A stretch of 64,000 nucleotides of DNA from Pempheris klunzingeri. Lineage: Eukaryota; Chordata; Actinopteri; Acropomatiformes; Pempheridae. A model generated the notes under the pieces. That model saw nothing but the letters and a program-made list of their open reading frames with translations, ran no database searches and was not told where the DNA came from. This document shows positions 5,178 through 31,509 of this stretch, piece after piece. A program made the translations under genes and the position numbers. Location of the stretch: positions 3,547,506-3,611,505 of the forward strand of contig NC_092027.1 in NCBI RefSeq assembly GCF_042242105.1, written 5' to 3'. Within the stretch, counting starts at the first letter, position 1. Every line of letters begins with the position of its first letter.

Positions 5178-5268
<91 letters not shown>

Positions 5269-6862
5269 CATTAAACAGAGTGAGATCACTGAAAAAAGGT
5301 GAAAAAAGCCTTCATGAGCACCAAGAGCTTCAGGTGAAACCTTCAAACAGCTTCTTTTGTCCGACCAACACTGAACAGTATTTAATTTAAAGTGATAATA
5401 AACAGAGAAAAGCAGCAAAGTAGTGATGGGAATTTCGGCTCTTTCTGCTCCCAAGTGGCTCCTCAGATATTTTTGTTGCTTCAATACATTTATTGCCAAA
5501 TTATGTGTAAAATGAATTACTAATGTAAAAAACACATTATATAGAATATGTATTATTTATATTGCTTTATTGATTCTAAATTATTTAGTTTTACTGGCTC
5601 ATAGAGCTCAGGGCTGTAGATCTTGGTGGCTGTGTTGTTGTCCTGGATGATACTGTAGATAATGTAGGAGCAGTAGACACACTGGCACCTTCATTAACAG
5701 CAGCTTCCCTTGCTTGTCTTTCCTCCTCTAACTGAATTGATGGTGAACAGTACACACACTTGTCTGTGCAGGTTGTTTGTGGAGTCTGCCCGATATGAAA
5801 CTTGAATTTTGCAAAGTCTGCACTCTGCCCTCCAACTATCAAGTGTATTAAAATGTGTCCAAATTTTACACCATTTTCTGTCGCTCATTTTTCTCACCTG
5901 TCCTGCTGCAGTCTGACTATGCAGCAATACTCTCTCACACTCTCATCTCTCCACCTCACTCCAGTTCGTGTGCTCACTGCGCTGTGCCCCCCTCCCTCCC
6001 GCTCAGTTTGGACACACAGACACCACCACACATCTTGACCAATCACGTGCAGCTTTAACAGAGAAAAGACGAGAAAAACAAACATCCCGATCGCATCGGC
6101 TCCCAATCAGGAGCCGGCTCCCATCGTTCACTTCAAAGAGCCGGCTTTTTCTCTTATTGAGAAACTGGTGCTAGAAAACATTCTGCATTAAATAAGTTAA
6201 ATAAGTAATAAATAAATAAAATAATAAATAAAAGACTTAAATGATTGGATGATTAAAAATGTTGTCAATTAATTTTCTGTTGATCAGCTAATTGATTACT
6301 TGACTAATTGTTTCAGAATAGATGTTTATTGTGGCACAGACACACTGAGGCATGGGGGTCTGATCACAGGTAAAAGTGGGGGTGCATGATTAGTGATTAG
6401 TGTAACGGGAGGTAAAGTGGGACGACTTTCATTTAATTAACACCTGAAAAGGACATTTTCTAAAACACAGTCATAACCATTAAAGCTGCTCTCTCAGTGT
6501 AAAGCTCAGTTTATATTGCACCATAAAATATTAGTGTTTCATTGTGTTCTGTTCTGGTTTCAGCAGTGAAAGAACGATTAAATGTTGTCTCAGAGTGCAC
6601 GTGATGCATATATCTGATAGTCTGCTGACTTTAGGACATTAGGAAAAGACATGTATGAAAATAAAATAAATGTAAAGACTACATAGAGAGCAAATAAATA
6701 TAAAAATCTAAATATAAGGTAATGAGGTACGGCAGCAACGAAATGTAGAAACACAATAAACATATGTGAGTAAATACATCCAATAAATATTAAAATATAA
6801 AGCCAAGAAAAGGCTCCATCAGACAGTTTAATCTCTGTGAATAAAACACTGCTGACAGACTG

Positions 6863-6928
<66 letters not shown>

Positions 6929-8021
6929 TTACACCTGTTCACTAAAATACAGGATGAAAATATAAATAATGTTTCATCAGTAGAAAGTGAAAAATAAACA
7001 AACCTCCAGTTTGGTTGAAGCGCTGCTTTGCAGTGTCAATGTTGACTTTGAGGGCCTGCTGGGAACCCTGATGGTACCCAGTCTCCCTCTCCCAGTACTG
7101 AGGATCATCCTCTGTGACTCTGCTCATCCAGTCCTGTTTGGCTTCTGCTCTCTTGGTCTCACTGTCGTAGTGAAACATCTGAACATCATCAACCAACCCA
7201 ACAATCACAAACTCTGGGAAGTTTGTGACTCCAGAAGAGGCAGTGAAGAAATACTTCAGAGAGTGAGTCACTGTAAGAAGGACATAATTAAGTGTACACA
7301 ATCCAAATTAACTATATTAACGTGATCTGAGACTGAAAATGTGTTAATCAATGAAGAAAAACTAAAAATGTAGATTTACATAATTTCTAAACTTACAGTT
7401 TTAAGGTCTATATTAAACAGTAATGAACAGTTTAAAGATTAAAGACTGAAAAGTGAACTATTCAAAGTTTTGGACAAGAAACTCTTGTTTTTATGATCGT
7501 TACTGTTCTTTATTTATTAATCTGAGTGTGTGTTGGAGAGTTTGGCGCGTCGTAGTTCTGCTGCCATTTTAACATTTAGATCGACCAGACAGTATCGATT
7601 AATGATCCTGACAATATCGATTAAGATAATGTCTCAAATAATAGCTAAAAACAAAGATAAACACAGTTTCCAACAGCTCTTTTTAGACACACACCTTCCC
7701 TCTGACAGAAAGTATTATTAGGGATTATAATGAGATGAACAGACTGAATGTCCTCACGTGACCTTTAAGATTATGAGTTTATAGCTTTTTAACATTTCTA
7801 TAATCTGCAAAGAAGTCCTGAAATCAAACATTAAAAAAAACGATCAAAACATCGAGTAATTCACAGAAACACTACATAAAGACACGGAGCTTTTTTTTTT
7901 CTTTACGATCAACCGATTTAAAATAACATCTTAACTCACGAGCCGTCGCGTCCTGCAGGAACATCAGAGCCAGAAAAACCAGAGTCTTCATCTTGATCAT
8001 CTGAATCATTGAGGGATTCAT
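915..8021 (-). CDS. MHC class I heavy chain, U lineage (gene 1), 8 exons
   Basis: Class I heavy chain that would present peptides at the cell surface with beta-2-microglobulin. Exons, 5' to 3': 7940-8021 (leader), 7004-7270 (alpha1), 4899-5177 (alpha2), 2660-2956 (alpha3), 1918-2025 (transmembrane), 1605-1622, 1142-1195, 915-1036. They join in phase 1 throughout and give 408 residues plus TAA. Leader about 1-27; alpha1 28-116, ending in the conserved N-glycosylation site NQTGG; alpha2 117-209 with the Cys pair (MYGC, QIC); alpha3 210-308 with the Ig C1 pattern CHATGFYP and YECVF; transmembrane 309-344, Ile-rich and closed by YKKKN; Ser/Thr-rich tail without Tyr. Peptide-terminus residues Y7, Y59, R84, T143, K146, W147, Y159 and Y171 (HLA numbering) are all present, so it looks classical. 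The first ATG gives a slightly long leader; an internal MKTLVFLAL start is also possible. A hAT element separates promoter and start codon. Function is inferred from homology. Confidence 0.93.
3914..4575. repeat. 660-bp segment in intron 3 of gene 1, shared by units 1-4, absent from gene 5
   Basis: In gene 5 the sequence jumps from gaaaatcca to tcttggcg (about 53577-53579), skipping about 660 bp present in genes 1-4 (also 15008-15669, 26132-26793 and about 37752-38413). No target duplication or inverted ends are obvious, so a deletion in gene 5 is as likely as an insertion in the others. Confidence 0.4.
5178..5265. repeat. (GA)n microsatellite forming the exon 3 polypyrimidine tract, gene 1
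   Basis: On the gene strand this is (CT)n running straight into the CAG acceptor of the alpha2 exon, so it serves as the polypyrimidine tract. Length about 88 bp. Confidence 0.9.
5422..6150 (-). mobile_element. hAT fragment with BED zinc-finger remnant, intron 2 of gene 1
   Basis: 729 bp that is missing from unit 4, where agcaaagt joins ctcttattgag directly (near 39653). The ends carry hAT-like GTGATGGGAATTTCGGCTC and inverted GAGCCGGCTC repeats. The minus strand near 5750-5890 encodes a BED finger-like stretch (KWCKIWTHF, AECRLCK, NNLHRQ). The expected His after NL.R is Gln, and the catalytic transposase domain is absent, so it is a dead remnant. No clean target duplication is seen. Confidence 0.65.
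6864..6927. repeat. (GT)n microsatellite, intron 2 of gene 1
   Basis: About 64 bp of GT near the alpha1 exon donor. The same length as in gene 2. Confidence 0.9.
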
Positions 8022-8041
8022 GGTTCTTGTGTTTCTCCGTC

Positions 8042-9136
8042 CAGAGTCGGCAACCCGCGGCTCCGGAGCCGCATGTGGCTCTTTAATCCCTCTGCTGCGG
8101 CTCCCTGTGGCTTTGAAAACTAAATCATGACTATTTTAACTCTCTAAAGAAGTTTAAATCTAAGTCTAAGACCTAACGGGCCCACCGGCTCTGGATTACC
8201 GTAATTCCGCCACAGTTTGTGCTTTCGGAAAAATTCCAACGGTTTCTGAAAGCTGAGACGTTGCGCTTTACAGCCAACATGGTGTCATTACGGTAATTTC
8301 ACTCGCGTGTCTCCCGGAAACCCGCGAATCAAATTTTCCCCCCCAGGGAAATCAGTGGAAATGTATTTATTATGCAAATTGTTCCTTTCTGTATATATTT
8401 CTGCCAGATTGTATATGTATTTTGATACAAAAAAGGTGATTTCATTTGTGTTCATGTGCTCTGAAGGCAATTTATTTCATTAGTAAAGGCATGAATCTAT
8501 ACATATTATTAAGATTTAGGATGTAAGGGTTGTATTGATGTATAATAAATTAAAATACTCCCAAAAATGGGACAACAGTGTGTAAAAATGTCAAAAAGAT
8601 GACATGCAGACGCTGTTCGCTGAGGTTCAGGAACTAAAATCACATTAACCAAGTAAGAGAAATATTTTAATAATCTACTATTTTGCATATATTCCTATTT
8701 TTTCATTGTTCAGTGAAATAGTCCATTTGTTATTCAGGTTGACAGCTGACTGGACGCTCCAGTAAAAGGATGAAGGCACAAAAGACGACGGCATTTTTGG
8801 TTTGCTGCCAATGGATCATTTAAGTTCGTTAAATACAAGATGGACTAAAATAGACATTGCGTATTTTATTTAAAAGTAACCTTGAACCCAGCGTCTTTTT
8901 CAAAATGTTTTTGTTGCATTCAGAAATGTCACTTCATTTTCTCTGTAGCAGTCCATTGGTTACATGAAAGCAACACACTATGGTTTGTTTATACATAACA
9001 TAAAGGTAAAAAACAATATATGCAGTGTTATCTTCATTTTGAATGTCAGAAGGGTTTTGCGGCTCCCGGTGTTTTCTTTTCTGTGGGAAACGGAACCAAA
9101 TGGCTCTTAGAGCAGTTAAGGTTGCAGACCCGTCTG
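8042..9136. mobile_element. hAT-type DNA transposon remnant between promoter and exon 1 of gene 1
   Basis: About 1,095 bp with imperfect terminal inverted repeats: the left end reads CAGAGTCGGCAACC, and the right end, reverse-complemented, reads CAGACGGGTCTGCAACC. Subterminal GCGGCTC/GGCTCTT motifs are typical of hAT elements. No transposase is recognisable, so it is a non-autonomous or decayed copy. No clear 8-bp target duplication is seen, and the empty allele in genes 4 and 5 has about 16 bases not present beside the element. It splits the gene's 5' end. Confidence 0.7.
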
Positions 9137-9179
9137 GACTGAGCTCCTGTTTGCTGCTCCACAAGATGGGAAGGGGCTC

Positions 9180-9272
9180 TGACGTCACATGGCCCGTCCA
9201 GCCAATGAGAATTCAGGGCGACTTGTTGCTGGGTAGAACTGACCCGCTGAGGTTGTCAACGAAAGTGAAAGT
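9180..9272 (-). promoter_or_regulatory. Class I promoter box cluster of gene 1 (ISRE, SXY-like, CRE)
   Basis: Read on the minus strand: ISRE ACTTTCACTTTC (9261-9272), X1-like CCCAGCAACA (9224-9233), Y-box CATTGG within CTCATTGGCTG (CCAAT at 9202-9206 on the plus strand), then a perfect CRE TGACGTCA (9180-9187). ISRE and SXY boxes are the elements through which interferon/IRF and NLRC5-RFX-NFY drive class I genes. The ATG is about 1.16 kb away because a hAT element lies between. No TATA box seen. Confidence 0.75.
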
Positions 9273-9300
9273 TAAACTAGCGTGTTTTTGGCCCGTGTGA

Positions 9301-11635
9301 GGGGAAGGGGAGCTTCGTGGGGAGCTTTATTCTGGTGTCTCCACTTTGTCCACACATGAAAGCTGCTGCTCACATTTTCTATAACGGCTGATGTCACATA
9401 ATGTTTTCTGGGAGGTCAGAGGTCACTGTCAGCTGCAGGTCAGACACTGTGGAGGTGGTGTGGATGCTGCAGGGTCTTCTTGTGTTGTGTATGGCTGCCC
9501 TGGGACTGAACACAGTCCTGATCAAAATACCACCAACAAACAATAAATCAAAGTGTTCAAACCTGCAGTGGATGTGCAGCAGTGCAGTTTCTCCCTGATA
9601 GTATCTGTTGTTTTAAACACACCTGAGTGCAATCACACCATCTGGTTATTGAATGAGATGGAGGGGAACATCTCTGTGTCCATACTGAAGTCCATAACCA
9701 AAACAGTATCTTATTTATGTGTCAGTATGTTTCCGTGCAGGCCTGCACATGGGTCTCGGCACAAATTAGACCTCATATTAGGACAGAGTGACAAACAATA
9801 AACACTAAATATAGTTTACATGAAGCGATATTTGGCCTTTTAATGTGACATGAAAACGTGAATGAAAGAAATCAAGCCAGAGGAGAAAGAGAGTGAGAGA
9901 GCTTCTTAAACACAAACATCAGGTCAGACCAGCTCTGTCCTGCAGGCTAAAAGCTCCTGAACTGATCTGAAGCTGTGGACGCTGAAAACTGCCCCAACCA
10001 CAGAAATCTAACACCACTGTTGATGTTTGAACACCTGATGCTGTTTTTCACTTTGCCGTTTCTGAAGCATTTTAGAAAAGGTTTGAGTTTAACAGAAATA
10101 CTCTTCCTGCTCTCTGCTGATCAGTAAGTTTCAATTCAAGAATAAATAGATATTTAATAATTTCATGATTATTGATGCATTAAAGTGTACACGTCACTTT
10201 AACGGCGAAGCTGGTAACCATGGCTGATTTAAGTCTATATGGTTGGGTAGCTATAATAACACAGAATGTATTTTTTGATTATATTTTGTATTGATTAATT
10301 GAAGCAGGCCTTATGATGAAAGCTAAATAAATGCAGTGCAGTGAAAAGTAGAATATTTCCCTCTGAACTGCAGTGGAGTAGAAGTATGAAATAACATTAA
10401 ATGGAAAAACTCATAGTAAAAGTACGAGCTCCTCAAAATGACTCTTAAGTATTTGAATGTACTTATTTAAGTTCCACTGCTGAAAGTCTAAATATATAAT
10501 GTATATGTTTGCTATGACAGAGGAGTGGGTGAAGTTTATACACAAGTGAAAACTTAACATATTAAAACATGATTGAAGAGAAATCTGTCAGTCAAGAACT
10601 TAATATAATAAATATATAAATGCTGTGATCAATATTTGTTCTCTATTTAAGTGTATTAGTACAGATTGTTGTATAACTGATCTCCAAATGAATGATCAAG
10701 TACATTTAGGCTTTTCAGATTCATCAAAGGAAATCACAAAGTCTCCCTCCCTCTCCACCACTCACACAGATTATTGATGCCAAGAGCAGATCACACAACA
10801 ACCAGAGTAAATAGTCTTCAAAATAAAGAAAAAACAGCAGGGGAGAGAATATTCAATATATAATAGTCACTCAGTACAGAATATACTCACAGTAACAAAT
10901 TTCCTTTTCATTTCGAACACAAAATGTCACCAAATGTAAAAGTTTCTAAATATGATGTGTACAGATTCATTTATTATTCTGATGAGCTAGTTCTAATTAT
11001 ATTCTTAATCCTTTTATAAACCAGACTACTGGGAAACACAAGTACTGACAGATAGAAAGGACTCAGAAATCATCAGCGTGACTTCATGTCAAGTAAAAAG
11101 ATGAACTTCTGCTTCAGTTGTGCCACAAGTTTGCTCAACTGGTTTCATCCTTTGTGAACTTTTTCATTTGATATCTGAACATCTGCACTTGGAGCCACTT
11201 CACTTGGTGTTTGTGTGAAAAACCAGGATTTATTCACGTTCCTGTGTGATCTCAGATGAGCAGGCACGTTTAATTTACCACACTGACACGTGTTTTATTA
11301 TCTAAATACATATATTTTAAATTTAACAACACAAAAGAATACAAGGCACACACTTACTTTTCCCTTAAAATACCATTGTGATTCTGGAGTTACAGAATAT
11401 ATCAAGGATTATAAATCAAAAACACAAAACAGAGAGAGAAAAAAGGTGAAATAGAGAATAAAATAGCACACAGTGTGTCTATGTGTACACATGTATTAGC
11501 ATATATTCACTCATTCATGTTTGTTTATTCGAACATGCAAAGAAACATCAGTACAACTAAAATCCTATTTTTGTCTTAATCATCACATCCAGCGAGACAG
11601 CCCTAGATAGCCCAGAGATAGTATATGTATTTCAT
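9301..11635. other. Intergenic DNA upstream of gene 1
   Basis: 2.3 kb between the gene 1 promoter and unit 2. It contains a short open stretch on the plus strand (9553-9801) with no family I recognise and otherwise AT-rich non-coding DNA. No RNA gene or promoter signature was recognised. The part after about 10830 is absent from units 4 and 5. Confidence 0.6.
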
Positions 11636-12134
11636 TTCATATAGAGTTGATTAAGTTGTCATCTTTTAACCAGTCCCTTGTAATTTGTTTAATTATTGCT
11701 ACCCTTATTACTGGGAACAAGTTTGAGTCTTCGCTCTCCTGCAGTAGAACCAGTGGGTTTTTGTTCAGAGAGATCCCAAAAATATCTAACAGTTTTCTAA
11801 TAGAAGATTCCTAGAAGACACTTTTAGCATTACATGACCAAAATACCTGACTGTGGTTTATCTGCTCACCACATCCTCTCCAGAGTTTAATCTTCTTTGT
11901 ACTTTGGTTTATTTATTCATTTGTGTTTTTATCTGTCTGAATGAAAATCAACTATACTAGTATATGTTTGCATTACACTATAGTAAACTTCATTATGTCA
12001 TATTGAACTATCATTAATATGGTTGTTATTAGAACTGTCAATATCTTTATTATTATTACTATTGCCATATTATAGTATATTATTATCATTATTACTATAG
12101 CAGTAGTTATGGTTGACAGTAATATCCCACTGTA

Positions 12135-12370
12135 CTGTTTTTATTTTTGTCACACTGCACTACATCGATGCTTTCACATTTGCACTATTCTCAAACCTGC
12201 TGCTACTTATATATGACATCTTTGCCATAAATTGACACTTTCTTTTTAACGTGTTACTTTTATCTATTGTGCTTTTGATTTTGTATTTTTAATGTTGGAT
12301 ACCTGTTCATTGACTGTTGCAACACCTGAATTTCCCCCATAGGGATCAATAAAGGATTATCTTCATCTTA
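12135..12370 (+). mobile_element. LINE 3'-tail fragment, unit 2 copy
   Basis: Co-duplicated counterpart of the fragment at 500-735, with the same aataaagg phrase and TTATCTTCATCTTA-like end. Confidence 0.55.
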
Positions 12371-12542
12371 AAGTGAGTGAAAGAGTGAATGAGTGTTTGA
12401 GTCTATATCTATGTTTGCTGATGATTTTCTATCCTCATACATCTCTATAAATTTATAAATACAGTCTTTGCACACATTATTTTTGTCAACAGTGAGGTCA
12501 TCCGTCCTTGTATTTGAATCATTCACCATTTACACGGTCCAT

Positions 12543-15500
12543 TTAGCTCCCCAGAACAGCGTTGGGCTGTGATCCATTACTTTGTTCTTTGGTCACCAAT
12601 GGCGTGTTGCTGTTTACACCGTCTGTAGAAGAATCCTCAGCACTACTTGAAGAAACCGGTGAGTCTGAAGAGAACAAAATACAAAATCATTTTAACAGGT
12701 AAAGGACAAAAATGGATATGATAAGATTTATGTAGAGACAGTCAGAGGGACAGATAGAGAGATATGTACCTGATCTGCTCGGCGAAGTTCCTGCAGGAGA
12801 AGTGCCAGATGAAGTCTTTATATCTACAAAAACCAATTAAATAAATCAACACTAGTTCTACTAGACCCAGTGGTGTGGTGGTGCCTGGAGAAGTGAATAT
12901 ACTTCTAATTCTATTTAAAAACAACCAATCCAGCAAAGTTTGGTCCTGATTGGACCATGAAGAGCCTAATTAGTAACCACTTCCTGTTTCATGGCGAAAC
13001 AGAAATTTGAGGCCTCGCCACGCCATCTGGTGAAAACTCTAGCGTAAGTGAATCGGATAAACTCCCTCAGAACACTGAACACTGCCCAACACTGCCCAAC
13101 AAAATATGGTTTCCAGAATGTGTTTTTTGTTGCATATCATTCCCCACAATATCCAGAAATCCTTCTTAATCTACAGACTGCATGTCCGCTCAGTGAAAAT
13201 AGAATAAAAAGAAGTTTTACTTGGAGGGCGTTTGGCTGAAATAAAAGGAAAAGACAAATGTTTTATGTTGTTACAAGTAGAAATGCCACACTTTGTCACT
13301 TTCTTCTCAGTGATGATGTCCTCTTCTATGCACTCAGACTGATATATAAATCTTTTCTATCTTTTGGTTCGATCTTACAATAGTTCTTTTCCTGTCATCT
13401 CTCCCTGACATCATCATGCTATAGTCATGTTATAATGACTGTGGCTCTGAGACCTTATTATTGTTTGGACTGAAGTCTAAATTCAGAGCACTGGAAAAAT
13501 GGAGACACAGTTTCAGTTTTGGTTTCTCACCGTTCTTCTTTTTATAGATGAAGAATCCAGCCAAAGCAATGATGACAGCCAGAACAGCCACTGCAGCAAT
13601 GATGATGATGGTGAAGTCAAGGGGCTTCTCTGTTGAGCAGAAAACAACAAACAAATCACAGCCTGTACAGATGAAGCAGGTTAGGAGAGAAAAACATCCA
13701 TTTCCCAACCAGACCCACCTCCCACCTCCATCACTTCTGATTCCTGTCTTACCTTCGTTGGACTCGATCACTGCTTTGTCCAGTTTGGTGACGATGTCCT
13801 CGACACCAGAGAGCTGAAACACACATTCGTAGCTCCCCCAGTCTTCAGATGCTCCTGGTGCTTTCAGGTCAACGCTCGTCTGGAAGGATCCATCGTTGTT
13901 GGGGAGGATCTCTCCGAGGGTCACGCCCCCATGATGCTCCTCTCCACCTTTCCTCCAGAACATCATGGCTGCGTTAGGGTAGAAACCTGTAGCGTGGCAG
14001 GTGACTGGAGAGGAGGGAGACTTCTGGAGGAGAGACACTTTGGGACGGTCTGGGAGTAAAGAGAAAGACAGTTTATACGCTATTAGTATGTACTATATAT
14101 TAATATTTAGCAGATGCTATTTGCAGCCAGGTGTAAATAGGCAATGTGGCAAATAAAGTGTGTCCATGAACAGATATGACTTTTTAATCAATCAATACAG
14201 AATTCCTCCTCAGTATTGAGCATAGATGTTTATATAGTAGATATTTGTGCTGCTTTTAGATGGTCTGACAAAGAAAAGACAAAACCAAATAACACTTCAC
14301 TGGTGAGAAGTTGGTTTACAAAGAAAATATGATCATCTTTATTCAAATCAATTAGTATATATTAATGATAGATGGTGAAAAAATGATATTTATCAGTCAG
14401 CTCCTGTCACTCTAATTGTTACTGTGTGAAGTTAAACTGTGAGGAGTTATTGATAAATCTGTATTGTTCATCTTTCTTGCATAAACATGATCTAACTCAT
14501 TTATTTTCTGTTGTACAAAACTGTTAGATTTCTGTATCATGTGTAACTGTTGCACTACGACGATGCAAAACTGTTGATACGCCTCATGTATATATTTGGA
14601 CACAGTGTCTGACTTTAAATGTAAAATAATTTAAATATACATACATGTTTATACTAAAAATGTTATTTAAAACAAAATTGTCTTGCCTGCCAGAAATTTA
14701 CTTTATCTTTCATCTTTATTGTCATAAATTAAACAAAACTAGAAAATGTGCAGTTCCTGAAGACACTGCAGTGTGAATGCTGCCTGCTGAATAGCTGACG
14801 CCACACTGCATTGCTGCTTTTTGTAACTGTAATTTATGGTTTAAGGTTCCATGATTTGGGTGCTGGGAATTCCTACTGCCTCTGAATGCACCACGTGCCT
14901 GTCAATCAGCTGTCAGGTTGCCATGGTGATGGTGCCTGCTGAGTCACTCTGGGCTCACACAGCTCTTTTCATTGACATTTCAGCTGTGACACACCTCTGA
15001 AAATCCAGGTTTTAGCTAAAAACAGTGACCGTCACAGCTTTAATGTGTGGACCAGTGGAGAGAAGAGGGTCTGCTGAACACGTACATGTAGTTTAATGTC
15101 TCTAACTTCTAAATTGAGAGAGCTGGAGCAGGTTAGAAAAGTGTTTGTTTCTGCCTCCCTCCTGAAGTTTGTGCTCTCAGTTAACATGGCAGTCAATGAG
15201 GCAGTTGGTTGGCTCTCCTGACGCTTCGAGGCTCTTGGAGGCAGCTGTGTATGTTTTTTGTTTCCATGGCCACATCACTGCGACGGGCACGATTTTTCCT
15301 ACGTTTTGGTGCATAAATGGTGAGTCTGAGTGACACACTGTGGTCGTGAGAGTGAGATAAAGACAACATTTTCACATGATTTTCCTGCTCCTCTGCACTC
15401 TAGCGATGATGTCACCCACTCTAGGCAGCGCAATACACACCCATTATAAAATCTGAAAAGGAGCGAAAACGGCATAAAACTAAAACTGTGATATTGTCAA

Positions 15501-16271
15501 AACTGCAAAATATATGTAAAAAAGCTAAATTATACTGTAACAGCTGAAGGTCTTGTGGTCTGTTTAAAAGTTGAATGGAGTCTCTGGCTGAAAGTATGAC
15601 GAAGCTATAACCTTTCAAAGTGGAGGAAGTTGAAGAGGATTTGAACGTTCGGCCCTGAGCAGCTGTTGACATCTTGGCGGCCATTTTGTACGTAGAAAGA
15701 AAGGAGTTTCCTTAAAAACTAATTATGTAGGTTAATCTAATCATTAATATTATATAGCAGAAATATCACTGTTACTATCTACATAACATTATTTATTTTA
15801 AGCGTGGGAGAGAAAGTGACAGAAACTGAGGTAAAGTAGGAGGCAGAGAGATGAAGAGGAGAGAGAACATGACAGAAAGATAAATGTGACACAAAGTGGG
15901 TGTATTTTGTTCATATAACTGTTGAGAAGACACAAAGAAGACATATTAACATTACTGTGTCCATGAATCCACATCAGGTCATGAGACTCTACCTGTTCTC
16001 AGCAGAGAGCTCCTCCCATAATCTACGTACTTCTTCAGCCACTCAGGACAAATCTGGGTCAGGTAGTTTTTATACTGTACTATCCCGGGTTTGTTATTGT
16101 CCCACTTGTGTTTGGTGATGACAGCCTCTGGTGTTGGAGCGATCCATGTCTCTGTCTTCAGGTCAAATACTATGAAGTCTTCTCCATCATAACCATCCTG
16201 ACTGAAACCGTTGGTTTTTCCCGTCTGATCATCCCACTGACAGCCGTACATCCTCTGGGCAATGTGGACAC

Positions 16272-16345
<74 letters not shown>

Positions 16346-17986
16346 GAGAGAGGGGGGGAGAGAGAGAGGGGGGGGGGGACAAAGAGAGACATCATTAAAC
16401 AGAGTGAGATCACTGAAAAAAGGTGAAAAAAGCCTTCATGAGCACCAAGAGCTTCAGGTGAAACCTTCAAACAGCTTCTTCTGTCCGACCAACACTGAAC
16501 AGTATTTAATTTAAAGTGATAATAAACAGAGAAAAGCAGCAAAGTAGTGATGGGAATTTCGGCTCTTTTGGCTCCCAAGTGGCTCCTCAGATATTTTTGT
16601 TGCTTCAATACATTTATTGCCAAATTATGTGTAAAATGAATTACTAATGTAAAAAACACATTATATAGAATATGTATTATTTATATTGCTTTATTGATTC
16701 TAAATTATTTAGTTTTACTGGCTCATAGAGCTCAGGGCTGTAGGTCTTGGTGGCTGTGTTGTTGTCCTGGATGATACTGTAGATAATGTAGGAGCAGTAG
16801 ACACACTGGCACCTTCATTAACAGCAGCTTCCCTTGCTTGTCTTTCCTCCTCTAACTGAATTGATGGTGAACAGTACACACACTTGTCTGTGCAGGTTGT
16901 TTGTGGAGCCTGCCCGATATGAAACTTGAATTTTGCAAAGTCTGCACTCTGCCCTCCAACTATCAAGTGTATTAAAATGTGTCCAAATTTTACACCATTT
17001 TCTGTCGCTCATTTTTCTCACCTGTCCTGCTGCAGTCTGACTATGCAGCAATACTCTCTCACACTCTCATCTCTCCCCCTCACTCCAGTTCGTGTGCTCA
17101 CTGCGCTGTGCCCCCCTCCCTCCCGCTCAGTTTGGACACACAGACACCACCACACATCTTGACCAATCACGTGCAGCTTTAACAGAGAAAAGACGAGAAA
17201 AACAAACATCCCGATCGCATCGGCTCCCAATCAGGAGCCGGCTCCCATCGTTCACTTCAAAGAGCCGGCTTTTTCTCTTATTGAGAAACTGGTGCTAGAA
17301 AACATTCTGCATTAAATAAGTTAAATAAGTAATAAATAAATAAAATAATAAATAAAAGACTTAAATGATTGGATGATTAAAAATGTTGTCAATTAATTTT
17401 CTGTTGATCAGCTAATTGATTACTTGACTAATTGTTTCAGAATAGATGTTTATTGTGGCACAGACACACTGAGGCATGGGGGTCTGATCACAGGTAAAAG
17501 TGGGGGTGCATGATTAGTGATTAGTGTAACGGGAGGTAAAGTGGGACGACTTTCATTTAATTAACACCTGAAAAGGACATTTTCTAAAACACAGTCATAA
17601 CCATTAAAGCTGCTCTCTCAGTGTAAAGCTCAGTTTATATTGCACCATAAAATATTAGTGTTTCATTGTGTTCTGTTCTGGTTTCAGCAGTGAAAGAACG
17701 ATTAAATGTTGTCTCAGAGTGCACGTGATGCATATATCTGATAGTCTGCTGACTTTAGGACATTAGGAAAAGACATGTATGAAAATAAAATAAATGTAAA
17801 GACTACATAGAGAGCAAATAAATATAAAAATCTAAATATAAGGTAATGAGGTACGGCAGCAACGAAATGTAGAAACACAATAAACATATGTGAGTAAATA
17901 CATCCAATAAATATTAAAATATAAAGCCAAGAAAAGGCTCCATCAGACAGTTTAATCTCTGTGAATAAAACACTGCTGACAGACTG

Positions 17987-18052
<66 letters not shown>

Positions 18053-19145: not shown

Positions 19146-19165
19146 GGTTCTTGTGTTTCTCCGTC

Positions 19166-20260
19166 CAGAGTCGGCAACCCGCGGCTCCGGAGCCGCATGT
19201 GGCTCTTTAATCCCTCTGCTGCGGCTCCCTGTGGCTTTGAAAACTAAATCATGACTATTTTAACTCTCTAAAGAAGTTTAAATCTAAGTCTAAGACCTAA
19301 CGGGCCCACCGGCTCTGGATTACCGTAATTCCGCCACAGTTTGTGCTTTCGGAAAAATTCCAACGGTTTCTGAAAGCTGAGACGTTGCGCTTTACAGCCA
19401 ACATGGTGTCATTACGGTAATTTCACTCGCGTGTCTCCCGGAAACCCGCGAATCAAATTTTCCCCCCCAGGGAAATCAGTGGAAATGTATTTATTATGCA
19501 AATTGTTCCTTTCTGTATATATTTCTGCCAGATTGTATATGTATTTTGATACAAAAAAGGTGATTTCATTTGTGTTCATGTGCTCTGAAGGCAATTTATT
19601 TCATTAGTAAAGGCATGAATCTATACATATTATTAAGATTTAGGATGTAAGGGTTGTATTGATGTATAATAAATTAAAATACTCCCAAAAATGGGACAAC
19701 AGTGTGTAAAAATGTCAAAAAGATGACATGCAGACGCTGTTCGCTGAGGTTCAGGAACTAAAATCACATTAACCAAGTAAGAGAAATATTTTAATAATCT
19801 ACTATTTTGCATATATTCCTATTTTTTCATTGTTCAGTGAAATAGTCCATTTGTTATTCAGGTTGACAGCTGACTGGACGCTCCAGTAAAAGGATGAAGG
19901 CACAAAAGACGACGGCATTTTTGGTTTGCTGCCAATGGATCATTTAAGTTCGTTAAATACAAGATGGACTAAAATAGACATTGCGTATTTTATTTAAAAG
20001 TAACCTTGAACCCAGCGTCTTTTTCAAAATGTTTTTGTTGCATTCAGAAATGTCACTTCATTTTCTCTGTAGCAGTCCATTGGTTACATGAAAGCAACAC
20101 ACTATGGTTTGTTTATACATAACATAAAGGTAAAAAACAATATATGCAGTGTTATCTTCATTTTGAATGTCAGAAGGGTTTTGCGGCTCCCGGTGTTTTC
20201 TTTTCTGTGGGAAACGGAACCAAATGGCTCTTAGAGCAGTTAAGGTTGCAGACCCGTCTG
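19166..20260. mobile_element. hAT remnant between promoter and exon 1 of gene 2
   Basis: Copy of the 8042-9136 element at the 11,124-bp offset, same length and same ends. Inherited with the duplicated block. Confidence 0.7.
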
Positions 20261-20303
20261 GACTGAGCTCCTGTTTGCTGCTCCACAAGATGGGAAGGGG
20301 CTC

Positions 20304-20396
20304 TGACGTCACATGGCCCGTCCAGCCAATGAGAATTCAGGGCGACTTGTTGCTGGGTAGAACTGACCCGCTGAGGTTGTCAACGAAAGTGAAAGT
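20304..20396 (-). promoter_or_regulatory. Class I promoter box cluster of gene 2
   Basis: CRE at 20304-20311, CCAAT/Y box at 20326-20330, ISRE at 20385-20396, with the CCCAGCAACA X1-like box between the last two. Same box set and spacing as gene 1, also displaced from the start codon by the hAT copy. Confidence 0.75.
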
Positions 20397-20424
20397 TAAA
20401 CTAGCGTGTTTTTGGCCCGTGTGA

Positions 20425-22759
20425 GGGGAAGGGGAGCTTCGTGGGGAGCTTTATTCTGGTGTCTCCACTTTGTCCACACATGAAAGCTGCTGCTCACATT
20501 TTCTATAACGGCTGATGTCACATAATGTTTTCTGGGAGGTCAGAGGTCACTGTCAGCTGCAGGTCAGACACTGTGGAGGTGGTGTGGATGCTGCAGGGTC
20601 TTCTTGTGTTGTGTATGGCTGCCCTGGGACTGAACACAGTCCTGATCAAAATACCACCAACAAACAATAAATCAAAGTGTTCAAACCTGCAGTGGATGTG
20701 CAGCAGTGCAGTTTCTCCCTGATAGTATCTGTTGTTTTAAACACACCTGAGTGCAATCACACCATCTGGTTATTGAATGAGATGGAGGGGAACATCTCTG
20801 TGTCCATACTGAAGTCCATAACCAAAACAGTATCTTATTTATGTGTCAGTATGTTTCCGTGCAGGCCTGCACATGGGTCTCGGCACAAATTAGACCTCAT
20901 ATTAGGACAGAGTGACAAACAATAAACACTAAATATAGTTTACATGAAGCGATATTTGGCCTTTTAATGTGACATGAAAACGTGAATGAAAGAAATCAAG
21001 CCAGAGGAGAAAGAGAGTGAGAGAGCTTCTTAAACACAAACATCAGGTCAGACCAGCTCTGTCCTGCAGGCTAAAAGCTCCTGAACTGATCTGAAGCTGT
21101 GGACGCTGAAAACTGCCCCAACCACAGAAATCTAACACCACTGTTGATGTTTGAACACCTGATGCTGTTTTTCACTTTGCCGTTTCTGAAGCATTTTAGA
21201 AAAGGTTTGAGTTTAACAGAAATACTCTTCCTGCTCTCTGCTGATCAGTAAGTTTCAATTCAAGAATAAATAGATATTTAATAATTTCATGATTATTGAT
21301 GCATTAAAGTGTACACGTCACTTTAACGGCGAAGCTGGTAACCATGGCTGATTTAAGTCTATATGGTTGGGTAGCTATAATAACACAGAATGTATTTTTT
21401 GATTATATTTTGTATTGATTAATTGAAGCAGGCCTTATGATGAAAGCTAAATAAATGCAGTGCAGTGAAAAGTAGAATATTTCCCTCTGAACTGCAGTGG
21501 AGTAGAAGTATGAAATAACATTAAATGGAAAAACTCATAGTAAAAGTACGAGCTCCTCAAAATGACTCTTAAGTATTTGAATGTACTTATTTAAGTTCCA
21601 CTGCTGAAAGTCTAAATATATAATGTATATGTTTGCTATGACAGAGGAGTGGGTGAAGTTTATACACAAGTGAAAACTTAACATATTAAAACATGATTGA
21701 AGAGAAATCTGTCAGTCAAGAACTTAATATAATAAATATATAAATGCTGTGATCAATATTTGTTCTCTATTTAAGTGTATTAGTACAGATTGTTGTATAA
21801 CTGATCTCCAAATGAATGATCAAGTACATTTAGGCTTTTCAGATTCATCAAAGGAAATCACAAAGTCTCCCTCCCTCTCCACCACTCACACAGATTATTG
21901 ATGCCAAGAGCAGATCACACAACAACCAGAGTAAATAGTCTTCAAAATAAAGAAAAAACAGCAGGGGAGAGAATATTCAATATATAATAGTCACTCAGTA
22001 CAGAATATACTCACAGTAACAAATTTCCTTTTCATTTCGAACACAAAATGTCACCAAATGTAAAAGTTTCTAAATATGATGTGTACAGATTCATTTATTA
22101 TTCTGATGAGCTAGTTCTAATTATATTCTTAATCCTTTTATAAACCAGACTACTGGGAAACACAAGTACTGACAGATAGAAAGGACTCAGAAATCATCAG
22201 CGTGACTTCATGTCAAGTAAAAAGATGAACTTCTGCTTCAGTTGTGCCACAAGTTTGCTCAACTGGTTTCATCCTTTGTGAACTTTTTCATTTGATATCT
22301 GAACATCTGCACTTGGAGCCACTTCACTTGGTGTTTGTGTGAAAAACCAGGATTTATTCACGTTCCTGTGTGATCTCAGATGAGCAGGCACGTTTAATTT
22401 ACCACACTGACACGTGTTTTATTATCTAAATACATATATTTTAAATTTAACAACACAAAAGAATACAAGGCACACACTTACTTTTCCCTTAAAATACCAT
22501 TGTGATTCTGGAGTTACAGAATATATCAAGGATTATAAATCAAAAACACAAAACAGAGAGAGAAAAAAGGTGAAATAGAGAATAAAATAGCACACAGTGT
22601 GTCTATGTGTACACATGTATTAGCATATATTCACTCATTCATGTTTGTTTATTCGAACATGCAAAGAAACATCAGTACAACTAAAATCCTATTTTTGTCT
22701 TAATCATCACATCCAGCGAGACAGCCCTAGATAGCCCAGAGATAGTATATGTATTTCAT
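20425..22759. other. Intergenic DNA upstream of gene 2
   Basis: Copy of 9301-11635 at the 11,124-bp offset, with no difference that I noticed. No gene recognised. Confidence 0.6.
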
Positions 22760-23258
22760 TTCATATAGAGTTGATTAAGTTGTCATCTTTTAACCAGTCC
22801 CTTGTAATTTGTTTAATTATTGCTACCCTTATTACTGGGAACAAGTTTGAGTCTTCGCTCTCCTGCAGTAGAACCAGTGGGTTTTTGTTCAGAGAGATCC
22901 CAAAAATATCTAACAGTTTTCTAATAGAAGATTCCTAGAAGACACTTTTAGCATTACATGACCAAAATACCTGACTGTGGTTTATCTGCTCACCACATCC
23001 TCTCCAGAGTTTAATCTTCTTTGTACTTTGGTTTATTTATTCATTTGTGTTTTTATCTGTCTGAATGAAAATCAACTATACTAGTATATGTTTGCATTAC
23101 ACTATAGTAAACTTCATTATGTCATATTGAACTATCATTAATATGGTTGTTATTAGAACTGTCAATATCTTTATTATTATTACTATTGCCATATTATAGT
23201 ATATTATTATCATTATTACTATAGCAGTAGTTATGGTTGACAGTAATATCCCACTGTA

Positions 23259-23494
23259 CTGTTTTTATTTTTGTCACACTGCACTACATCGATGCTTTCA
23301 CATTTGCACTATTCTCAAACCTGCTGCTACTTATATATGACATCTTTGCCATAAATTGACACTTTCTTTTTAACGTGTTACTTTTATCTATTGTGCTTTT
23401 GATTTTGTATTTTTAATGTTGGATACCTGTTCATTGACTGTTGCAACACCTGAATTTCCCCCATAGGGATCAATAAAGGATTATCTTCATCTTA
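23259..23494 (+). mobile_element. LINE 3'-tail fragment, unit 3 copy
   Basis: Same fragment, in the 3' flank of gene 3, inherited with the tandem unit. Confidence 0.55.
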
Positions 23495-23666
23495 AAGTGA
23501 GTGAAAGAGTGAATGAGTGTTTGAGTCTATATCTATGTTTGCTGATGATTTTCTATCCTCATACATCTCTATAAATTTATAAATACAGTCTTTGCACACA
23601 TTATTTTTGTCAACAGTGAGGTCATCCGTCCTTGTATTTGAATCATTCACCATTTACACGGTCCAT

Positions 23667-26600
23667 TTAGCTCCCCAGAACAGCGTTGGGCTGTGATCCA
23701 TTACTTTGTTCTTTGGTCACCAATGGCGTGTTGCTGTTTACACCGTCTGTAGAAGAATCCTCAGCACTACTTGAAGAAACCGGTGAGTCTGAAGAGAACA
23801 AAATACAAAATCATTTTAACAGGTAAAGGACAAAAATGGATATGATAAGATTTATGTAGAGACAGTCAGAGGGACAGATAGAGAGATATGTACCTGATCT
23901 GCTCGGCGAAGTTCCTGCAGGAGAAGTGCCAGATGAAGTCTTTATATCTACAAAAACCAATTAAATAAATCAACACTAGTTCTACTAGACCCAGTGGTGT
24001 GGTGGTGCCTGGAGAAGTGAATATACTTCTAATTCTATTTAAAAACAACCAATCCAGCAAAGTTTGGTCCTGATTGGACCATGAAGAGCCTAATTAGTAA
24101 CCACTTCCTGTTTCATGGCGAAACAGAAATTTGAGGCCTCGCCACGCCATCTGGTGAAAACTCTAGCGTAAGTGAATCGGATAAACTCCCTCAGAACACT
24201 GAACACTGCCCAACACTGCCCAACAAAATATGGTTTCCAGAATGTGTTTTTTGTTGCATATCATTCCCCACAATATCCAGAAATCCTTCTTAATCTACAG
24301 ACTGCATGTCCGCTCAGTGAAAATAGAATAAAAAGAAGTTTTACTTGGAGGGCGTTTGGCTGAAATAAAAGGAAAAGACAAATGTTTTATGTTGTTACAA
24401 GTAGAAATGCCACACTTTGTCACTTTCTTCTCAGTGATGATGTCCTCTTCTATGCACTCAGACTGATATATAAATCTTTTCTATCTTTTGGTTCGATCTT
24501 ACAATAGTTCTTTTCCTGTCATCTCTCCCTGACATCATCATGCTATAGTCATGTTATAATGACTGTGGCTCTGAGACCTTATTATTGTTTGGACTGAAGT
24601 CTAAATTCAGAGCACTGGAAAAATGGAGACACAGTTTCAGTTTTGGTTTCTCACCGTTCTTCTTTTTATAGATGAAGAATCCAGCCAAAGCAATGATGAC
24701 AGCCAGAACAGCCACTGCAGCAATGATGATGATGGTGAAGTCAAGGGGCTTCTCTGTTGAGCAGAAAACAACAAACAAATCACAGCCTGTACAGATGAAG
24801 CAGGTTAGGAGAGAAAAACATCCATTTCCCAACCAGACCCACCTCCCACCTCCATCACTTCTGATTCCTGTCTTACCTTCGTTGGACTCGATCACTGCTT
24901 TGTCCAGTTTGGTGACGATGTCCTCGACACCAGAGAGCTGAAACACACATTCGTAGCTCCCCCAGTCTTCAGATGCTCCTGGTGCTTTCAGGTCAACGCT
25001 CGTCTGGAAGGATCCATCGTTGTTGGGGAGGATCTCTCCGAGGGTCACGCCCCCATGATGCTCCTCTCCACCTTTCCTCCAGAACATCATGGCTGCGTTA
25101 GGGTAGAAACCTGTAGCGTGGCAGGTGACTGGAGAGGAGGGAGACTTCTGGAGGAGAGACACTTTGGGACGGTCTGGGAGTAAAGAGAAAGACAGTTTAT
25201 ACGCTATTAGTATGTACTATATATTAATATTTAGCAGATGCTATTTGCAGCCAGGTGTAAATAGGCAATGTGGCAAATAAAGTGTGTCCATGAACAGATA
25301 TGACTTTTTAATCAATCAATACAGAATTCCTCCTCAGTATTGAGCATAGATGTTTATATAGTAGATATTTGTGCTGCTTTTAGATGGTCTGACAAAGAAA
25401 AGACAAAACCAAATAACACTTCACTGGTGAGAAGTTGGTTTACAAAGAAAATATGATCATCTTTATTCAAATCAATTAGTATATATTAATGATAGATGGT
25501 GAAAAAATGATATTTATCAGTCAGCTCCTGTCACTCTAATTGTTACTGTGTGAAGTTAAACTGTGAGGAGTTATTGATAAATCTGTATTGTTCATCTTTC
25601 TTGCATAAACATGATCTAACTCATTTATTTTCTGTTGTACAAAACTGTTAGATTTCTGTATCATGTGTAACTGTTGCACTACGACGATGCAAAACTGTTG
25701 ATACGCCTCATGTATATATTTGGACACAGTGTCTGACTTTAAATGTAAAATAATTTAAATATACATACATGTTTATACTAAAAATGTTATTTAAAACAAA
25801 ATTGTCTTGCCTGCCAGAAATTTACTTTATCTTTCATCTTTATTGTCATAAATTAAACAAAACTAGAAAATGTGCAGTTCCTGAAGACACTGCAGTGTGA
25901 ATGCTGCCTGCTGAATAGCTGACGCCACACTGCATTGCTGCTTTTTGTAACTGTAATTTATGGTTTAAGGTTCCATGATTTGGGTGCTGGGAATTCCTAC
26001 TGCCTCTGAATGCACCACGTGCCTGTCAATCAGCTGTCAGGTTGCCATGGTGATGGTGCCTGCTGAGTCACTCTGGGCTCACACAGCTCTTTTCATTGAC
26101 ATTTCAGCTGTGACACACCTCTGAAAATCCAGGTTTTAGCTAAAAACAGTGACCGTCACAGCTTTAATGTGTGGACCAGTGGAGAGAAGAGGGTCTGCTG
26201 AACACGTACATGTAGTTTAATGTCTCTAACTTCTAAATTGAGAGAGCTGGAGCAGGTTAGAAAAGTGTTTGTTTCTGCCTCCCTCCTGAAGTTTGTGCTC
26301 TCAGTTAACATGGCAGTCAATGAGGCAGTTGGTTGGCTCTCCTGACGCTTCGAGGCTCTTGGAGGCAGCTGTGTATGTTTTTTGTTTCCATGGCCACATC
26401 ACTGCGACGGGCACGATTTTTCCTACGTTTTGGTGCATAAATGGTGAGTCTGAGTGACACACTGTGGTCGTGAGAGTGAGATAAAGACAACATTTTCACA
26501 TGATTTTCCTGCTCCTCTGCACTCTAGCGATGATGTCACCCACTCTAGGCAGCGCAATACACACCCATTATAAAATCTGAAAAGGAGCGAAAACGGCATA

Positions 26601-27395
26601 AAACTAAAACTGTGATATTGTCAAAACTGCAAAATATATGTAAAAAAGCTAAATTATACTGTAACAGCTGAAGGTCTTGTGGTCTGTTTAAAAGTTGAAT
26701 GGAGTCTCTGGCTGAAAGTATGACGAAGCTATAACCTTTCAAAGTGGAGGAAGTTGAAGAGGATTTGAACGTTCGGCCCTGAGCAGCTGTTGACATCTTG
26801 GCGGCCATTTTGTACGTAGAAAGAAAGGAGTTTCCTTAAAAACTAATTATGTAGGTTAATCTAATCATTAATATTATATAGCAGAAATATCACTGTTACT
26901 ATCTACATAACATTATTTATTTTAAGCGTGGGAGAGAAAGTGACAGAAACTGAGGTAAAGTAGGAGGCAGAGAGATGAAGAGGAGAGAGAACATGACAGA
27001 AAGATAAATGTGACACAAAGTGGGTGTATTTTGTTCATATAACTGTTGAGAAGACACAAAGAAGACATATTAACATTACTGTGTCCATGAATCCACATCA
27101 GGTCATGAGACTCTACCTGTTCTCAGCAGAGAGCTCCTCCCATAATCTACGTACTTCTTCAGCCACTCAGGACAAATCTGGGTCAGGTAGTTTTTATACT
27201 GTACTATCCCGGGTTTGTTATTGTCCCACTTGTGTTTGGTGATGACAGCCTCTGGTGTTGGAGCGATCCATGTCTCTGTCTTCAGGTCAAATACTATGAA
27301 GTCTTCTCCATCATAACCATCCTGACTGAAACCGTTGGTTTTTCCCGTCTGATCATCCCACTGACAGCCGTACATCCTCTGGGCAATGTGGACAC

Positions 27396-27467
<72 letters not shown>

Positions 27468-29111
27468 GAGAGAGGGGGGGGAGAGAGAGAGGGGGGGGGG
27501 GGGACAAAGAGAGACATCATTAAACAGAGTGAGATCACTGAAAAAAGGTGAAAAAAGCCTTCATGAGCACCAAGAGCTTCAGGTGAAACCTTCAAACAGC
27601 TTCTTCTGTCCGACCAACACTGAACAGTATTTAATTTAAAGTGATAATAAACAGAGAAAAGCAGCAAAGTAGTGATGGGAATTTCGGCTCTTTTGGCTCC
27701 CAAGTGGCTCCTCAGATATTTTTGTTGCTTCAATACATTTATTGCCAAATTATGTGTAAAATGAATTACTAATGTAAAAAACACATTATATAGAATATGT
27801 ATTATTTATATTGCTTTATTGATTCTAAATTATTTAGTTTTACTGGCTCATAGAGCTCAGGGCTGTAGGTCTTGGTGGCTGTGTTGTTGTCCTGGATGAT
27901 ACTGTAGATAATGTAGGAGCAGTAGACACACTGGCACCTTCATTAACAGCAGCTTCCCTTGCTTGTCTTTCCTCCTCTAACTGAATTGATGGTGAACAGT
28001 ACACACACTTGTCTGTGCAGGTTGTTTGTGGAGCCTGCCCGATATGAAACTTGAATTTTGCAAAGTCTGCACTCTGCCCTCCAACTATCAAGTGTATTAA
28101 AATGTGTCCAAATTTTACACCATTTTCTGTCGCTCATTTTTCTCACCTGTCCTGCTGCAGTCTGACTATGCAGCAATACTCTCTCACACTCTCATCTCTC
28201 CCCCTCACTCCAGTTCGTGTGCTCACTGCGCTGTGCCCCCCTCCCTCCCGCTCAGTTTGGACACACAGACACCACCACACATCTTGACCAATCACGTGCA
28301 GCTTTAACAGAGAAAAGACGAGAAAAACAAACATCCCGATCGCATCGGCTCCCAATCAGGAGCCGGCTCCCATCGTTCACTTCAAAGAGCCGGCTTTTTC
28401 TCTTATTGAGAAACTGGTGCTAGAAAACATTCTGCATTAAATAAGTTAAATAAGTAATAAATAAATAAAATAATAAATAAAAGACTTAAATGATTGGATG
28501 ATTAAAAATGTTGTCAATTAATTTTCTGTTGATCAGCTAATTGATTACTTGACTAATTGTTTCAGAATAGATGTTTATTGTGGCACAGACACACTGAGGC
28601 ATGGGGGTCTGATCACAGGTAAAAGTGGGGGTGCATGATTAGTGATTAGTGTAACGGGAGGTAAAGTGGGACGACTTTCATTTAATTAACACCTGAAAAG
28701 GACATTTTCTAAAACACAGTCATAACCATTAAAGCTGCTCTCTCAGTGTAAAGCTCAGTTTATATTGCACCATAAAATATTAGTGTTTCATTGTGTTCTG
28801 TTCTGGTTTCAGCAGTGAAAGAACGATTAAATGTTGTCTCAGAGTGCACGTGATGCATATATCTGATAGTCTGCTGACTTTAGGACATTAGGAAAAGACA
28901 TGTATGAAAATAAAATAAATGTAAAGACTACATAGAGAGCAAATAAATATAAAAATCTAAATATAAGGTAATGAGGTACGGCAGCAACGAAATGTAGAAA
29001 CACAATAAACATATGTGAGTAAATACATCCAATAAATATTAAAATATAAAGCCAAGAAAAGGCTCCATCAGACAGTTTAATCTCTGTGAATAAAACACTG
29101 CTGACAGACTG

Positions 29112-29159
<48 letters not shown>

Positions 29160-30228
29160 TTACACCTGTAAATAATGTTTCATCAGTAGAAAGTGAAATA
29201 TAAACAAACCTCCAGTTTGGTTGAAGCGCTGCTTTGCAGTGTCAATGTTGACTTTGAGGGCCTGCTGGGAACCCTGATGGTACCCAGTCTCCCTCTCCCA
29301 GTACTGAGGATCATCCTCTGTGACTCTGCTCATCCAGTCCTGTTTGGCTTCTGCTCTCTTGGTCTCACTGTCGTAGTGAAACATCTGAACATCATCAACC
29401 AACCCAACAATCACAAACTCTGGGAAGTTTGAGACTCCAGAAGAGGCAGTGAAGAAATACTTCAGAGAGTGAGTCACTGTAAGAAGGACATAATTAAGTG
29501 TACACAATCCAAATTAACTATATTAACGTGATCTGAGACTGAAAATGTGTTAATCAATGAAGAAAAACTAAAAATGTAGATTTACATAATTTCTAAACTT
29601 ACAGTTTTAAGGTCTATATTAAACAGTAATGAACAGTTTAAAGATTAAAGACTGAAAAGTGAACTATTCAAAGTTTTGGACAAGAAACTCTTGTTTTTAT
29701 GATCGTTACTGTTCTTTCTTTATTAATCTGAGTGTGTGTTGGAGAGTTTGGCGCGTCGTAGTTCTGCTGCCATTTTAACATTTAGATCGACTAGACAGTA
29801 TCGATTAATGATCCTGACAATATCGATTAAGATAATGTCTCAAATAATAGCTAAAAACAAAGATAAACACAGTTTCCAACAGCTCTTTTTAGAAACACAC
29901 CTTCCCTCTGACAGAAAGTATTATTAGGGATTATAATGAGATGAACTGACTGAATGTCCTCACGTGACCTTTAAGATTATGACTTTATAGCTTTTTAACA
30001 TTTCTGTAATCTGCAAAGAAGTCCTGAAATCAAACATTAAAAAAAACGATCAAAACATCGAGTAATTCACAGAAACACTACATAAAGACACGGAGCTTTT
30101 TTTTTTTCTTTACGATCAACCGATTTAAAATAACATCTTAACTCACGAGCCGTCGCGTCCTGCAGGAACATCAGAGCCAGAAAAACCAGAGTCTTCATCT
30201 TGATCATCTGAATCATTGAGGGATTCAT
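23667..30228 (-). CDS. MHC class I heavy chain (gene 3)
   Basis: Exons: 30147-30228 (leader), 29210-29476 (alpha1), 27117-27395 (alpha2), 24877-25173 (alpha3), 24655-24753 (transmembrane), 24345-24359, 23894-23947, 23667-23788; 404 residues. Differs from gene 2 in the 5' half: alpha1 reads SGVSNFPEF where genes 1 and 2 read SGVTNFPEF, and the GT run and nearby intron 2 are shorter. Alpha2 to tail appears the same as gene 2, with the same altered exon 6 donor and short transmembrane exon. Groove residues Y7, Y59, R84, T143, K146, W147, Y159 and Y171 are present. The hAT element between promoter and start codon is present as in genes 1 and 2. The role (peptide presentation) is inferred from family membership. 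Confidence 0.92.
27396..27514. repeat. (GA)n tract beside exon 3, gene 3
   Basis: About 119 bp. Differs from gene 2 only in G-run and GA counts, a slippage-type difference. Confidence 0.9.
27671..28399 (-). mobile_element. hAT/BED remnant, intron 2 of gene 3
   Basis: 729-bp copy that appears the same as the one in gene 2. It lies in intron 2 between the GA tract and the GT tract. Confidence 0.65.
29112..29159. repeat. (GT)n microsatellite, intron 2 of gene 3
   Basis: About 48 bp, shorter than in genes 1 and 2. The stretch between the GT run and exon 2 also lacks about 25 bp found in the other genes. Confidence 0.9.
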
Positions 30229-30248
30229 GGTTCTTGTGTTTCTCCGTC

Positions 30249-31343: not shown

Positions 31344-31386
31344 GACTGAGCTCCTGTTTGCTGCTCCACAAGATGGGAAGGGGCTC

Positions 31387-31479
31387 TGACGTCACATGGC
31401 CCGTCCAGCCAATGAGAATTCAGGACGACTTGTTGCTGGGTAGAACTGACCCGCTGAGGTTGTCAACGAAAGTGAAAGT
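31387..31479 (-). promoter_or_regulatory. Class I promoter box cluster of gene 3
   Basis: CRE 31387-31394, CCAAT/Y box 31409-31413 and ISRE 31468-31479. Separated from the gene 3 ATG at 30228 by the third copy of the hAT element. Confidence 0.75.
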
Positions 31480-31509
31480 TAAACTAGCGTGTTTTTGGCC
31501 CGTGTGAGG

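Follow-up and report, generated by a model that had tools for sequence, protein, structure and literature searches.

A hybrid MHC class I gene within an 11,124-bp tandem repeat of a fish class I array, probably formed by unequal crossing-over between its two neighbors

Results

The class I array and its genes

The window, that is, the whole 64,000-base stretch of DNA that was analyzed (C16:3547506-3611505), belongs to an assembly of 645,938,514 bases in 439 contigs. Twenty-four of these contigs appear to be chromosome-sized, since 16 of C1 to C24 measure 14.9-36.7 Mb and C25 measures 0.44 Mb; C16 is 24.3 Mb long. The window and its flanks carry, on the minus strand, an array of seven MHC class I genes (0 to 6). 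When the genome was searched with Pfam MHC_I, 33 candidates yielded 30 exon matches, all of them on C16, in clusters at ~1.64 Mb, 3.31-3.37 Mb, 3.54-3.61 Mb (the studied array) and 4.88-4.90 Mb. There is no N in the 164,000 bases of the window plus flanks, while the same chromosome has one 200-N gap and an N run of at least 2,006 at 4.87-4.90 Mb. The 200-N gap in the 4.9-Mb class I cluster adjoins a GA microsatellite that lies by an alpha-2 exon, an element of the same kind as the one in which the two tract copies described below differ. No relative appeared in a scan of viral contigs with the alpha-1 exon, in line with a fish origin of the gene, and none of the publication titles listed in literature searches names such an array, a result of little weight because the searches were not made by species.

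Gene models were built with their GT/AG borders checked, and genes 1, 2 and 3 were all found to be intact. Gene 1 (915..8021, minus strand) has 8 coding exons with every GT/AG border present and encodes 408 amino acids. Gene 2 (12543..19145, minus strand), the hybrid, also has 8 coding exons and encodes 404 amino acids, and gene 3 (23667..30228, minus strand), which with gene 1 makes up the parental pair, encodes 404. The gene 2 ectodomain matched both MHC_I (PF00129, E 1.3e-47) and C1-set (PF07654, E 3.3e-07), which identifies it as MHC class I. The nearest PDB match was 5h5z (260.7 bits; the next reached 204.5), which we take to be grass carp UAA, and by this nearest solved relative the genes are classified as U-lineage-like. 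Together with the gene content, this match indicates that the DNA comes from a bony fish.

The peptide-terminus residues of class I molecules are Y7, Y59, R84, T/K/W at 143/146/147, Y159 and Y171. Gene 2 has the corresponding motifs KYF (6-8), QYW (58-60), QRFN (83-86), TKHKW (142-146, one residue below the HLA numbering), KNYL (157-160) and KKYV (169-172). Judged by this residue set, in one haplotype, gene 2 looks classical. Gene 4 has Ile in place of Tyr7 in alpha-1 (HSMKIF; 42074-42343) and His in place of Tyr171 in alpha-2 (KKHV; 38737-39015), and may be non-classical if these residues have the role given above. Outside the window on its upstream side, at -9998 to -9718, gene 0 has an alpha-2 exon that was recovered as three frame-shifted tblastn pieces, with Tyr changed to Asp in the MYGC motif; gene 0 is likely a pseudogene, or else its exon carries assembly indels.

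The repeated tract and the switch point

Three units, each containing one of genes 1 to 3, were aligned: 1-11635 (U1), 11636-22759 (U2) and 22760-33843 (U3). Unit 2 agreed with unit 3 at 76 of the 108 substitution sites, every one of them left of 17078 (one, 16305, in a microsatellite), and with unit 1 at 31, of which 29 are at 18117 or beyond and 2 are in the same microsatellite. The remaining site, again in the microsatellite, is the only substitution private to unit 2. Among the 17 indels, 16 followed this split and the exception was in the microsatellite: nine, all on the left and two of them in the microsatellite, are shared by units 2 and 3, and seven, all within or to the right of a GT array, are shared by units 2 and 1. 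Outside the microsatellite, therefore, all 104 substitutions and all 14 indels obeyed the split. The initial annotation had proposed that unit 2 equals unit 3 from 11.6 to ~17.1 kb and unit 1 from ~18.0 to 22.76 kb, and the positions of the 76 and 29 sites bear this out; the private unit 2 differences that were to be sought by three-way alignment numbered zero outside the microsatellite. Units 1 and 3 differ from each other at 78 of 5,410 positions on the left (1.44%) and 29 of 4,698 on the right (0.62%). The match pattern of unit 2 is not due to chance, since units 1 and 3 themselves differ and the longest exact repeat elsewhere in the 164 kb, beyond the three-unit comparison, is 933 bp.

If L denotes the half of a unit from alpha-2 to the 3' end and R the half from alpha-1 to the promoter, the order observed along the plus strand is L1-R1-L3-R1-L3-R3, which is the pattern predicted initially for duplication of the two inner halves of an ancestral gene pair. 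The stretch R1-intergenic-L3, together with an overlap, is present as copy A (5954..18033; 12,080 bp) and copy B (17078..29158; 12,081 bp) with a period of 11,124. The copies match without a single difference over 10,379 bp (5954-16332 = 17078-27456, offset 11,124) and again over 1,666 bp (16368-18033 = 27493-29158, offset 11,125). Only five alignment columns differ, all at 16333-16367 in a single (GA)n/G-run microsatellite beside the alpha-2 exon (16274..16378), where copy A has GA30, G7 and G11 and copy B has GA29, G8 and G13. Both offsets had been reported for this region, but the change from one to the other is confined to this element.

The final gene-3-type site in unit 2 is 17077, and the earliest gene-1-type markers are a GT array from 17989, followed by an indel of 25 bp (18062) and a substitution (18117). 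The array, (GT)31 at 17989..18050, is of equal length in units 1 and 2 and is (GT)22 in unit 3. There is a single switch point, and it is confined to a stretch of 911-956 bp within the second intron of gene 2 (17078..18033) where units 1 and 3 match exactly (17078-18033 = 5954-6909 = 28203-29158). The earlier placement of the crossover in intron 2, at ~17.08-17.98 kb, was thus correct as to the intron, and its limits are refined here to 17078-~17988, or to 18050 if the switch is inside the GT array. Nowhere else do units 1 and 3 match exactly over a run as long as these 911 bp, the next being 405 bp.

Among 40 scored of 471 candidate matches, the full 956-bp stretch was found in three copies, all in the studied array, and partial copies in this array and the 4.88-4.90 Mb cluster; on contigs beyond C24, these 40 included no copy of the shared tract. 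The initial ~193 bp of the stretch matches a dispersed repeat, and 30 of the 40 scored matches cover that part only, 29 of them on other contigs. A BED zinc-finger fragment in intron 2 of gene 1 (5697..5942, minus strand; Pfam zf-BED, E 1.4e-4) adjoins the identical tract on the left, and the aligned stretch is present in units 2 and 3 too. Its zf-BED match suggests that this fragment is a remnant of a hAT-type transposon.

Proteins encoded by the hybrid and parental genes

Gene 2 has the same exons 1-2 as gene 1 and the same exons 3-8 as gene 3, base for base. The proposal that alpha-1 comes from one gene and alpha-2/alpha-3 from another is therefore right as to ancestry, but it does not carry over to function, because the parental genes differ at 1 of 267 bases in exon 2 (alpha-1) and 0 of 82 in exon 1. 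The coding sequences of genes 2 and 3 are one base apart, in exon 2, and as a result of the near-identical parental alpha-1 exons their proteins are the same save for one residue in 404, Thr or Ser at mature position 16 (Thr16Ser). From alignment to 5h5z and HLA numbering, this residue is predicted to lie away from the groove, in the loop that joins alpha-1 strands one and two. Between genes 1 and 2 there are 2 base differences in alpha-2, each of which changes a residue, and 3 in alpha-3; the TM exon differs in length by 9 bp and the tail at a few bases.

In units 2 and 3 the exon 6 donor is deleted, as the initial annotation stated, through the loss of 7 bp, but an in-frame GT follows, since the remaining sequence reads CCAA and then GTAAAAC. 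Exon 6 of gene 2 (13221..13235, minus strand) presumably uses this GT as its donor, and loss of gene 2 function through loss of the donor was accordingly set aside. A 511-bp stretch of the alpha-3/TM intron (2114-2624) is present in unit 1, and also in unit 4, and is missing from units 2 and 3.

Origin of the hybrid gene

We consider it probable, at about 0.7, that unequal crossing-over (NAHR) between genes 1 and 3 made the hybrid gene 2 and that the event is present in the animal; the mechanism and the physical presence are both what we infer from the assembled sequence. The ancestor would have been a pair of near-identical class I genes, L1-R1-L3-R3. Genes 1 and 3 would have misaligned and recombined unequally within the 911-956 bp of intron 2 that were already identical, and the product would have gained one 11,124-bp module, R1-intergenic-L3. 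Gene 2 would then have received its promoter side, signal peptide and alpha-1 from gene 1, and its alpha-2, alpha-3, TM and tail from gene 3.

This origin fits the requirement of unequal crossing-over, as there is one switch inside shared homology and the repeated tract equals the period plus the shared tract. It is also favored because a single event accounts for all of the substitutions and indels outside the microsatellite and because the switch falls in the longest exact U1/U3 run. Further support comes from the gap-free 164 kb, given that N runs occur at 4.87-4.90 Mb, from the lack of any copy of the shared tract beyond C24 among the 40 matches scored, and from the intact state of the parents and the hybrid, with GT/AG borders and, in gene 2, an ectodomain of MHC_I and C1-set type. 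Microhomology-mediated template switching was set aside, being unneeded where 911 bp of perfect homology lie at the junction.

Outside the microsatellite, copies A and B showed 0 substitutions in ~12,040 compared bases, which bounds their divergence at ~2.5e-4 (95%, rule of three). This bound is ~4% of the 0.62% that separates units 1 and 3 on the right and ~2% of the 1.44% on the left. Fish mutation rates are a few 1e-9 per site per generation, and at this rate the duplication would date back less than a few tens of thousands of generations.

The same lack of substitutions over ~12 kb, with differences only in GA/G runs that are prone to assembler error, counts against a real event in that an assembler loop would look the same. 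If a loop X-R1-L3-X had been walked twice in the assembly graph, and the animal had only genes 1 and 3, the predicted product would equal the observed sequence letter for letter. False copies without heterozygous k-mers ("homotype") are described in passages of PMC9516828. Differences found only in GA/G runs fit both a young duplication and consensus noise, and the initial reading, "very recent or assembly duplication", agrees with copies that are free of substitutions outside one microsatellite. However, the loop needs an assembly unit of less than ~1 kb, or blindness to 0.6-1.4% divergence. A gap-free 164 kb through such an array points to long reads and these, if accurate, would carry flanking markers across the 911 bp. 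In addition, the inter-copy gap that marks false duplication in the relevant passages of PMC9516828 is absent here (0 N in 164,000 bases). An artefact of this kind is in our judgment unlikely.

According to the same passages of PMC9516828, false duplication arises mainly from alleles (heterotype), which here would mean that two haplotypes of one R1-L3 stretch were placed end to end. MHC alleles should differ, however, and 0 substitutions in 12 kb outside the microsatellite would need a homozygous stretch; we regard this explanation as extremely improbable.

History of the parental genes

Units 1 and 3 have diverged unequally to the left and right of the switch, which shows that the parents themselves had a mosaic past. 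Windowed distances showed left halves common to units 1, 3 and 4, much of the right half common to units 0, 4 and 5, and an intergenic end of unit 0 that matches units 1-3. For the split between units 1 and 3, these distances give a mosaic and not one clean earlier event of the same sort.

Such a past raises gene conversion, in which a ~12-kb tract from the neighbors would have replaced the sequence of a pre-existing gene 2. Homogenization is evident elsewhere, as divergence among the seven genes is no more than 1.3% for alpha-3 exons, against up to 14.1% for alpha-1 and 21.4% for alpha-2, and an exact 933-bp tract is shared by the non-adjacent genes 0 and 4. The unequal U1/U3 halves (1.44% v 0.62%) are likewise in keeping with conversion. 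On the other hand, the tract must exceed other exact tracts by the order of tenfold (10,379 v 956 and 933 bp), and both of its ends must hit the same 911-bp interval one unit apart (~8% by length). Conversion is thus a very unlikely source of gene 2, for which we prefer unequal crossing-over.

The 933-bp match between genes 0 and 4 (at -6654 and 42412) is just upstream of alpha-1 and suggests gene conversion between these two genes. In gene 6, the alpha-2 exon (64145-64420, past the window end) is 20-21% from all six others, and there is nothing unusual about its alpha-1 (10.7-13.3%) or its alpha-3 (at most 1.3%); on these distances, gene 6 is a candidate for a true domain swap across divergent lineages.

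The intron 2 tract might also be a recurrent recombination site, at which R-L modules are gained and lost so that class I copy number and the pairing of alpha-1 with alpha-2 vary among living fish of this species, though we think this doubtful. The route may be crossover, or excision and re-insertion of an 11-kb circle, with the transposon remnant alongside.

Discussion

As predicted from the coding sequences, the duplication probably raises by one the dose of a nearly identical class I molecule, peptide-presenting and classical in appearance; with a single residue separating proteins 2 and 3, the change is of dose more than of kind. If real, the locus offers a freshly made example of the growth of a fish class I array, before mutations blur it, with the crossover pinned to ~1 kb in the intron that has been proposed for alpha-1 shuffling. 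If false, the class I count of the assembly is one too high, and the copy would be annotated as a gene.

In the human MHC, unequal crossing-over adds or removes copies of the tandem RCCX module and leaves chimeric genes where the modules join, and these chimeras often disable a gene. The array studied here resembles RCCX in having a tandem module with a chimeric gene at its junction; unlike RCCX, it involves other genes, and all three class I genes are intact. Copy-number variation of the RCCX module (C4-CYP21-TNX) is covered in PMC8362596.

False duplications, as characterized in sections of PMC9516828, are similar in presenting an extra identical copy of a gene-bearing stretch. The present case differs from those described there in having no inter-copy gap, no allelic differences and a join at an exactly homologous place.

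In teleost U-lineage class I genes, alpha-1 domains are shuffled by recombination, and the large intron between alpha-1 and alpha-2 is presumed to enable this, according to portions of PMC4810163 and PMC4364491. As in that shuffling, a switch between the alpha-1 and alpha-2 exons joins the alpha-1 of one source to the downstream exons of a second. Unlike the shuffling depicted in those portions, which involves ancient divergent alpha-1 lineages and occurs mainly among alleles, the present event joined near-identical paralogues, with a gain of one copy of the gene and a change in a single residue. Altogether, the locus presents a real pattern with a probably ordinary mechanism and a small effect on the protein, an assembly artefact being the less likely source.
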